In this document: piece after piece, positions 12,492 through 36,227 of the stretch
How positions within the stretch are numbered: position 1 is the stretch's first letter
Layout of the letters: every line of letters begins with the position of its first letter
Assembly: GCF_007826885.1 (NCBI RefSeq)
Contig: NZ_ML675581.1
Coordinates: 1 to 64,000, forward strand
Origin: Candidatus Nitrosocosmicus arcticus
GTDB taxonomy: Archaea; Thermoproteota; Nitrososphaeria; Nitrososphaerales; Nitrososphaeraceae
Length of the DNA stretch: 64,000 bases
Direction of reading: 5' to 3'
Translations under genes and position numbers: made by a program
The notes under the pieces: model-generated
Seen by the model: the letters and a program-made list of their open reading frames with translations, nothing else
Told to the model about the DNA's origin: nothing
The model's database searches: none

Positions 12492-12614
12492 TGCGGGAGG
12501 TGGGATTCGAACCCACGAATCCCTAAGGAACAGGGTTGTAGGAAACTTCCAAGCTCATTCTAAGCCTCGCACAATTGCTGACCTGCGCCGTTGACCGGGC
12601 TTGGCAACCCCCGC
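12492..12614 (-). tRNA. tRNA-Leu (anticodon UAG proposed), two introns
   Basis: A class II tRNA on the minus strand, 122 bases plus discriminator A. The acceptor GCGGGGG pairs with CTCCCGC, the D arm is GCCAAGCCCGGTCAACGGC, the T arm is GTGGG-TTCGAAT-CCCAC, and there is a long variable arm (TTCCTTAGGGATTC). The anticodon arm is split. Removing 16 bases (12567-12582, site 29/30) and 22 bases (12537-12558, site 37/38) restores the stem CAGGG/CCCTG with loop CTTAGAA, hence anticodon UAG, and a mature length of 84 bases before the discriminator. The Leu identity is firm from the class II form and A73. The two-intron solution is my inference; a different single-intron solution gave no valid loop. 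Confidence 0.8.
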
Positions 12615-32852: not shown

Positions 32853-32900
32853 ATTCGTAAAATTAATAACGTCCGTACTTACAATATAAAAATGCCCGGA

Positions 32901-32989
32901 AGCCCGGTAGTATTACAAGTGCCGAGTGTAGTGGCCAAGCATAGAGGCCTTTGGAGCCTTTGACCCCAGTTCGAATCTGGGCCGGGCTA
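32901..32989 (+). tRNA. tRNA-Gln (UUG) with a 16-base intron near the D arm
   Basis: The acceptor AGCCCGG pairs with CCGGGCT, discriminator A. The T arm is CCCAG-TTCGAAT-CTGGG. The anticodon arm is GAGGC-CTTTGGA-GCCTT, which gives anticodon UUG at 32951-32953, hence Gln. The D arm GTGT-AGTGGCCAA-GCAT starts 18 bases after the acceptor instead of 2. Removing 16 bases (32910-32925, or one base earlier) leaves T8 A9 and a normal 73-base tRNA including the discriminator. It begins GT and ends CGA. The tRNA call is firm; the intron is inferred from length and pairing. Confidence 0.85.
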
Positions 32990-34750: not shown

Positions 34751-35580
34751 TTATTGTTGTCCGACAGCGTTACTACCGGTATTATTTTGACTTTGTGTGT
34801 TTGCGTTATTTCCAGAACCAGAAGTGCTACCACCAGATGCTACACCACTACCTTGGTTAGAGGATTGTGATTGGCCTATACCTTGGTTAGCGCTGTTTCC
34901 ACCGCTACCACTACCGCCTTGTTGTGCTGCTGCATTATTTCCAGTGTTTGTTTGACTTTGTGTGTTTGCGTTATTTCCAGAACCAGAAGTGCTACCACCA
35001 GATGCTATACCACTACCTTGGTTAGAGGATTGTGATTGGCCTATACCTTGGTTAGCGCTGTTTCCACCGCTACCACTACCGCCTTGTTGTGCTGCTGCAT
35101 TATTTCCAGTGTTTGTTTGACTTTGTGTGTTTGCGTTATTTCCTGAATTAGTTGTGTTGCCGCCAGATACTACACCACTACCTTGGTTAGAGGATTGTGA
35201 TTGGCCTATACCTTGGTTAGCGCTGTTTCCACCGCTACCACTACCACCTTGTTGTCCGACAGCGTTACTACCGGTATTATTTTGACTTTGTGTGTTTGCG
35301 TTATTTCCAGAACCAGAAGTGCTACCACCAGATGCTACACCACTACCTTGGTTAGAGGATTGTGATTGGCCTATACCTTGGTTAGCGCTGTTTCCACCGC
35401 TACCACTACCGCCTTGTTGTGCTGCTGCATTATTTCCAGTGTTTGTTTGACTTTGTGTGTTTGCGTTATTTCCAGAACCAGAAGTGCTACCACCAGATGC
35501 TACACCACTACCTTGGTTAGAGGATTGTGATTGGCCTATTGCTTGGTTAGCTAAATTGCCACCGCTACCACTACCACCTT
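34751..35580. repeat. five 165-base tandem repeats in the secreted protein
   Basis: The motif CCTTGGTTAGCGCTG recurs at 34881, 35046, 35211 and 35376, with a related copy at 35541, a spacing of exactly 165 bases each time. The copies are nearly identical over most of their length, with variants such as TGSN in two units. The lack of drift suggests recent expansion or gene conversion. Confidence 0.9.
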
Positions 35581-36019
35581 GTTGTGCTAATGCGTTATTT
35601 CCACTGTTTGCTTGGTTTTGTGCATTCAAATTATTACACGAAACAAATGTTCCAGAACCTGATACACATAGAGCATTTTGATTAGAGGATTGTGCTTGAC
35701 CTATCCCTTGGTTAGCGCTGTTACCACCGTCATCATCATCGTCATCATCATCGTTGCCACCACTTTGTGCTGCTGCATTATTTCCACTGTTTGCTTGGTT
35801 TTGTGCATTCAAGTTGTTACATGAAAAAAGGGTGCCAGTACCAGATACACAAACACCGAGTTGGGTTGAGGATTGTGATTGGCCTATACCTTGGTTAGCT
35901 GAGTTAGTTGTAGCAAATACATTCATGGTCATTGAAATTGGACCTAAAAGTAATACGAATGATATTGCTAATACGGTTGAAGTCAGTAAAATTTTATTTA
36001 CATTAATGATATTATTCAT
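34751..36019 (-). CDS. secreted Asn/Gln/Ser/Gly repeat protein
   Basis: An exported, low-complexity protein. A signal peptide lies at the start from Met at 36019 (INVNKILLTSTVLAISFVLLL), followed by an N-terminal part with paired cysteines (LGVCVSGTGTLFSCNNLNAQ, two copies) and an acidic run (DDDDDDDD). The second half is a series of 55-residue repeats rich in N, Q, S and G (NQGIGQSQSSNQGSG, NNANTQSQTNTGNNAAAQQG). The pattern Q-T-N-T-G-N-N-A-A-A-Q recalls curlin-like beta-repeats; it may be a matrix or surface fibre. The start at 36055 adds 12 basic residues. The C-terminus has no anchor. Confidence 0.72.
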   Translation of the reverse strand: MNNIINVNKILLTSTVLAISFVLLLGPISMTMNVFATTNSANQGIGQSQSSTQLGVCVSGTGTLFSCNNLNAQNQANSGNNAAAQSGGNDDDDDDDDGGNSANQGIGQAQSSNQNALCVSGSGTFVSCNNLNAQNQANSGNNALAQQGGSGSGGNLANQAIGQSQSSNQGSGVASGGSTSGSGNNANTQSQTNTGNNAAAQQGGSGSGGNSANQGIGQSQSSNQGSGVASGGSTSGSGNNANTQSQNNTGSNAVGQQGGSGSGGNSANQGIGQSQSSNQGSGVVSGGNTTNSGNNANTQSQTNTGNNAAAQQGGSGSGGNSANQGIGQSQSSNQGSGIASGGSTSGSGNNANTQSQTNTGNNAAAQQGGSGSGGNSANQGIGQSQSSNQGSGVASGGSTSGSGNNANTQSQNNTGSNAVGQQ

Positions 36020-36227
36020 CCGTTCTTTATTACTACTAAAAGTATATAAACTCATTCATATAATTATCAAACCTAATAGTATTTTGTATCTGTTTTATGC
36101 AATATTCTACCATATATCAAGAACCAAATATTTCATTGGCCTTGGAATTCTGGTATTGAAACAAACTCCACTCAGAATCTTATTTAAACAAAAAAAATGA
36201 TTGTTGTAATTACTAACAAGATATATT

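Follow-up and report, generated by a model that had tools for sequence, protein, structure and literature searches.

The tRNA-Gln(UUG) gene of Candidatus Nitrosocosmicus arcticus, a soil-dwelling, ammonia-oxidising archaeon, is interrupted by 16 bases which, judged by their sequence, are an archaeal bulge-helix-bulge (BHB) intron with predicted excision, and its leader carries a second copy of tRNA positions 2-7, i.e., of the gene's own 5′ acceptor strand. Comparison with orthologous genes and modelling of the precursors make us fairly confident that the two features belong together: the intron would be cut between tRNA positions 10 and 11, and the leader copy would act as a placeholder strand for the acceptor stem until splicing.

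The interrupted gene and its BHB intron

The gene lies at positions 32901-32989 on the forward strand of the window, by which we mean the whole 64,000-nt stretch of DNA that was analysed; all features of the gene given below are on the same strand. Its acceptor stem is perfect (AGCCCGG, 32901-32907, paired with CCGGGCT, 32982-32988, and followed by the discriminator A at 32989), and both the anticodon TTG (UUG, 32951-32953) and the T arm (32965-32981) are in place. The original prediction had described this layout correctly, including the spacer from acceptor stem to D arm, which has 18 bases where 2 are expected. In the unspliced gene, the Rfam tRNA model matches only at model positions 9-63 (35.2 bits), and ARAGORN wrongly sets the 5′ end at 32920. 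With the 16 bases taken out, ARAGORN returns a flawless tRNA-Gln(ttg) cloverleaf of 73 nt, and the earlier interpretation of the insert as a 16-base intron thus holds. The possibility had also been raised that this gene might be silent beside a second, intact tRNA-Gln(UUG); a search of the whole genome (2.64 Mb, 98% complete) found no further tRNA-Gln, whether UUG or CUG, and the interrupted gene is the sole one detected. The genome also encodes two subunits of the splicing endonuclease EndA (PF01974, 100.9 and 74 bits), the ligase candidate RtcB, and RNase P RNA.

The precursor can be divided into a 5′ exon with tRNA positions 1-10 (AGCCCGGTAG, 32901-32910), of which 32901-32907 form the true 5′ acceptor strand, the 16-nt intron (TATTACAAGTGCCGAG, 32911-32926), and a 3′ exon with tRNA positions 11-73 (32927-32989). 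The putative BHB motif begins with CGGU (tRNA positions 5-8, 32905-32908), the 5′ strand of the central helix, followed by a 3-nt bulge made up of positions 9 and 10 and the first intron base (32909-32911), a very short inner helix within the intron (32912-32914 with 32918-32920), the 3′ strand of the central helix, GCCG (32921-32924), and a second 3-nt bulge consisting of the last two intron bases and position 11 (32925-32927). Both bulges read AG|T and contain the predicted cut sites. This geometry was compared across 113 orthologues with the insert (38 genera, 13 families), which share ancestry, so that counts among them are not independent. The central helix, 4 bp between the 5′ exon and the 3′ end of the intron, pairs in 451 of 452 cells, and its 3′-strand variants GCCG, ACCG, and GCUG all remain paired with CGGU. 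The inner helix is 91% paired when the bulges are kept at strictly 3 nt, compared to 33-67% if only its 5′ side is shifted (a joint shift of the two sides simply follows the same helix); in the genus to which the window belongs, it is very weak. No continuous outer exon-exon helix, as in the full hBHBh′ form, is evident among these genes, and the motif resembles the relaxed HBh′ form. The intron varies in length (14-68 nt) between exons that stay constant.

With AG repeated at either end, cuts at 8/9, 9/10, and 10/11 all yield an identical mature tRNA in the window gene and are not separable. The orthologues point to 10|11 as the most likely position, since only this cut gives both strict 3-nt bulges and the invariant G10 of intronless genes (G in 113/113). 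The positions originally proposed, 8/9 or 9/10, fit less well: both leave the bulges out of register, and with a cut at 9|10, position 10 would be A, G, T, or C among the relatives. A split or permuted tRNA was rejected, as 32901-32989 contains both exons as one contiguous gene in the standard order.

The duplicated acceptor strand in the leader

One base upstream of the tRNA, the leader sequence GCCCGG (32894-32899) duplicates tRNA positions 2-7 and is complementary to 32982-32987; the 3′ acceptor strand CCGGGCT (32982-32988) is therefore the common partner of the leader copy and the true 5′ strand. All 113 intron genes, vs. 5 of 53 intronless ones, have in their leader 6 or more consecutive bases that are complementary to the 3′ acceptor strand, and the rule holds inside each of the five families that mix both types of genes (f9, f10, f13, f17, and f20). 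The copy itself pairs at all six positions in 111 of the 113 genes and at five in the remaining two; that of L154 (ATCCGG) pairs at 5/6. Changes in the copy are C-to-T and keep G-U pairing, except in two genes, and the information content of the copy columns (1.4-2.0 bits) exceeds that of the flanks (0.02-0.51 bits). The spacing between copy and tRNA is variable, at 0-13 nt, and reaches 18 nt in one bathyarchaeon. Outside the set of 113, a 7-base run within 20 nt was found in 16 further genes and a copy 18 nt away in one more; a 7-base leader run of this kind is absent from two bacterial sequences that matched by chance. Leader copies in L179 and L181 were seen by eye, outside the scripted count. 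Among the other tRNA genes of this genome, only 1 of 37, a tRNA-Met, has a run of 6. The idea that the upstream copy represents the mature 5′ end was rejected, as its position-1 base is neither conserved nor paired.

The spacing of promoter elements is shifted as well. Genes of the Nitrosopumilaceae-like family f9 have a conserved promoter-like element, the end of which lies 25-28 nt before the tRNA where the intron is present vs. 20-23 nt where it is absent, i.e., 5-6 nt farther upstream in intron genes. Most genera in the family to which the window belongs have TTATAA or TTATTAA ~28-31 nt before the copy; no such element was found at this distance in the window's own genus. From this spacing, the leader copy probably lies at the very start of the transcript. 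The promoter element was dismissed as the cause of the copy, which is largely absent from intronless genes, whose element sits 5 nt nearer.

Retention of the copy over 13 families, with variable spacing and unconserved flanks, is difficult to reconcile with the alternative that the intron is an ordinary noncanonical BHB intron and the copy a functionless relic of a tandem duplication, e.g., one that arose in the event that created the intron. This explanation is unlikely, even if the copy, as a direct repeat adjoining the acceptor, has the form expected after a duplication, and a similar repeat exists in one intronless gene outside the intron set (L226, GGCCCGGTGG): nearly all intronless genes are devoid of it, its changes mostly preserve G-U pairing, and its effect on folding (see below) runs in the direction expected for a functional strand.

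Covariation between copy and acceptor was also sought, but among 398 genomes of the phylum there is no intron gene with a changed acceptor position 6, in which compensation might be seen; intron-bearing acceptors are nearly invariant. Drifted acceptors (AGTCCTG, AGCCCGA, AGCCCTG, and AGCCCCG) occur in intronless tRNA-Gln genes (L163-L165, L152, L158, L112, L237-L246), and none was seen together with the intron. By sequence, the pattern looks as if the BHB motif pinned acceptor positions 5-8.

Several other tRNA loci of this genome deserve mention in their own right. A second interrupted tRNA is located in the window at 12492-12614 on the reverse strand; it is Leu-like, with acceptor strands GCGGGGG/CTCCCGC, a long variable arm, and an intron, and was missed by ARAGORN (Rfam, 31 bits). 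Elsewhere in the genome, tRNAs for Trp (in the anticodon region and T loop), Arg(CCT), and Asp and Glu (in the D arm) are apparently interrupted at noncanonical places (L063, L064, L067, L069), and none of these four has a leader copy of its own acceptor strand. A 63-nt copy of tRNA-Gly(CCC) (L061, contig C2:84359-84421) lacks ~12 bases of the anticodon arm and has both ends intact; it lies ~18 kb from the full tRNA-Gly(CCC) gene (L017, C2:65977-66051) and may be either a pseudogene or the scar of an integration. A tRNA-His(GTG)-like gene with a weak score and poor stems (L066, contig C3:110662-110734, 33 bits) is probably a degenerate or foreign tRNA copy. Apart from tRNAs, the window contains, at 34751-36055 on the reverse strand, an ORF of 434 aa with near-identical Gly/Ser/Asn/Gln-rich repeats after a hydrophobic N-terminal stretch.

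A possible order of tRNA-Gln maturation

The central helix of the BHB motif would engage acceptor nucleotides 5-8 (CGGU) with the intron sequence GCCG. The motif and the native acceptor stem are mutually exclusive, because the BHB needs acceptor nucleotides 5-7. In the precursor, the leader copy GCCCGG could pair with the 3′ acceptor strand, whereby the rest of the tRNA would be held closed and the true strand left free for the BHB; the acceptor stem probably depends on the copy until splicing has taken place, since the true strand (CGGU, 5-8) is needed elsewhere. The splicing endonuclease would then cut at 10|11, the exons would be sealed, presumably by RtcB, the true 5′ strand would displace the leader copy, and RNase P would trim the leader last. 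If the leader serves as a placeholder strand, splicing should therefore be forced before 5′ trimming. What the sequences themselves show is the intron, the BHB geometry, the leader copy, its co-occurrence with the intron, and the shifted promoter spacing; the strand exchange, the processing order, and all other steps after transcription are inferred. That the processing geometry would be unusual had been a good hunch of the original prediction, which missed the upstream copy of the acceptor strand, the apparent solution.

Each precursor was folded twice, with either the BHB helix or the native acceptor stem forced, which yields approximate energies. With the leader present, the BHB state wins in 82/113 genes (median -1.9 kcal/mol), compared to 9/113 with the leader barred (median +4.7 kcal/mol); in the other 31 of the 113 genes, the model prefers the native acceptor even with the leader. 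The unconstrained optimum of the window gene (-36.4 kcal/mol) is the swapped state (leader paired with the 3′ strand, true strand with the intron), vs. -31.5 kcal/mol for the native-acceptor state; this fold is near, though not exactly, a textbook BHB.

Pairing between the leader copy and the 3′ strand might instead serve mainly to block RNase P or to shield the 3′ end, with the BHB forming while the native acceptor is transiently opened. Bacterial RNase P is slowed when the leader of a precursor pairs with its 3′ RCCA end (PMC9433436), and in some basal lineages the copy is extended and pairs with the discriminator and the encoded CCA. Such a block leaves unexplained why the copy should accompany the 10/11 intron alone, the BHB of which makes use of the acceptor strand, and we regard it as somewhat less probable still than a duplication relic; it also overlaps the placeholder model and does not exclude it. 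A nonfunctional pseudogene disrupted by a random insertion, which would fit the merely partial tRNA detected by ARAGORN and Rfam in the unspliced gene, is scarcely credible for the only tRNA-Gln found in a genome that encodes splicing machinery, with exons that are conserved class-wide around inserts of 14 to 68 nt.

Distribution, related systems, and implications

A survey of relatives, as originally suggested, found an insert at the same place in all 65 genomes of the family in which the tRNA-Gln gene was found, and it is therefore not a chance insertion. Class-wide, the exact intron pattern occurs in 103 of 400 sampled genomes and 38 of 82 genera, while the intronless form of tRNA-Gln was matched in 162 of the 400; within the clade, the position is thus not the rare one it had been taken for. 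A scan of a species-level genome collection showed that records labelled Bathyarchaeota and Brockarchaeota share this arrangement, including the leader copy, some with a CUG anticodon. In several other lineages, two or three introns are apparent in tRNA-Gln (L182-L187, L218, L220-L222, L309, L327), located at 10/11, at the junction of D stem and anticodon stem, in the anticodon region, and, in one case, in the T arm.

Noncanonical introns in Thaumarchaeota are already known, as stated in the accessible text of PMC8450103, and noncanonical intron positions in archaeal tRNAs have been reviewed (PMC4090602); 10/11 is not among the positions named in the accessible text of that review, where the list ends in “etc.”, and may be recorded elsewhere, e.g., in figures or supplements. 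As far as these two sources could be consulted, the introns they describe share with the present one BHB-type splice sites away from 37/38, a two-subunit endonuclease, and a short length, whereas here the acceptor strand is taken up by the motif and duplicated in the leader. In split and permuted archaeal tRNAs (PMC3218864, PMC4090602), leader sequences likewise form helices beside the splice site; these join separate or reversed halves, whereas the present gene has contiguous exons in the standard order and a leader that stands in for the acceptor strand. The bacterial system of PMC9433436 also involves pairing between a 5′ leader and the precursor's 3′ end, but this pairing extends the acceptor stem, while here the 5′ strand is replaced and the replacement is tied to an intron. 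No account of a leader duplicate of the acceptor strand was found in the openly readable text of the literature searched.

For genome annotation, a leader duplicate of the acceptor strand can serve as a flag for a nearby intron. The arrangement shows how a tRNA gene can accommodate an intron whose splice motif takes up the acceptor strand itself, namely with a spare strand in the leader. The predicted order, splicing before 5′ trimming, in the sole detected tRNA-Gln is the opposite of that reported for Methanopyrus kandleri, in which both ends are trimmed before the intron is removed (PMC3695527), and it therefore provides a sharp test. On balance, though with less confidence than for the individual gene, we favour the view that an obligatory exchange of acceptor strands governs tRNA-Gln maturation over a large part of the Nitrososphaeria, Bathyarchaeota, and Brockarchaeota: the leader duplicate would form a surrogate acceptor stem, the true strand would be lent to the splice site, and splicing would precede and license cleavage by RNase P.
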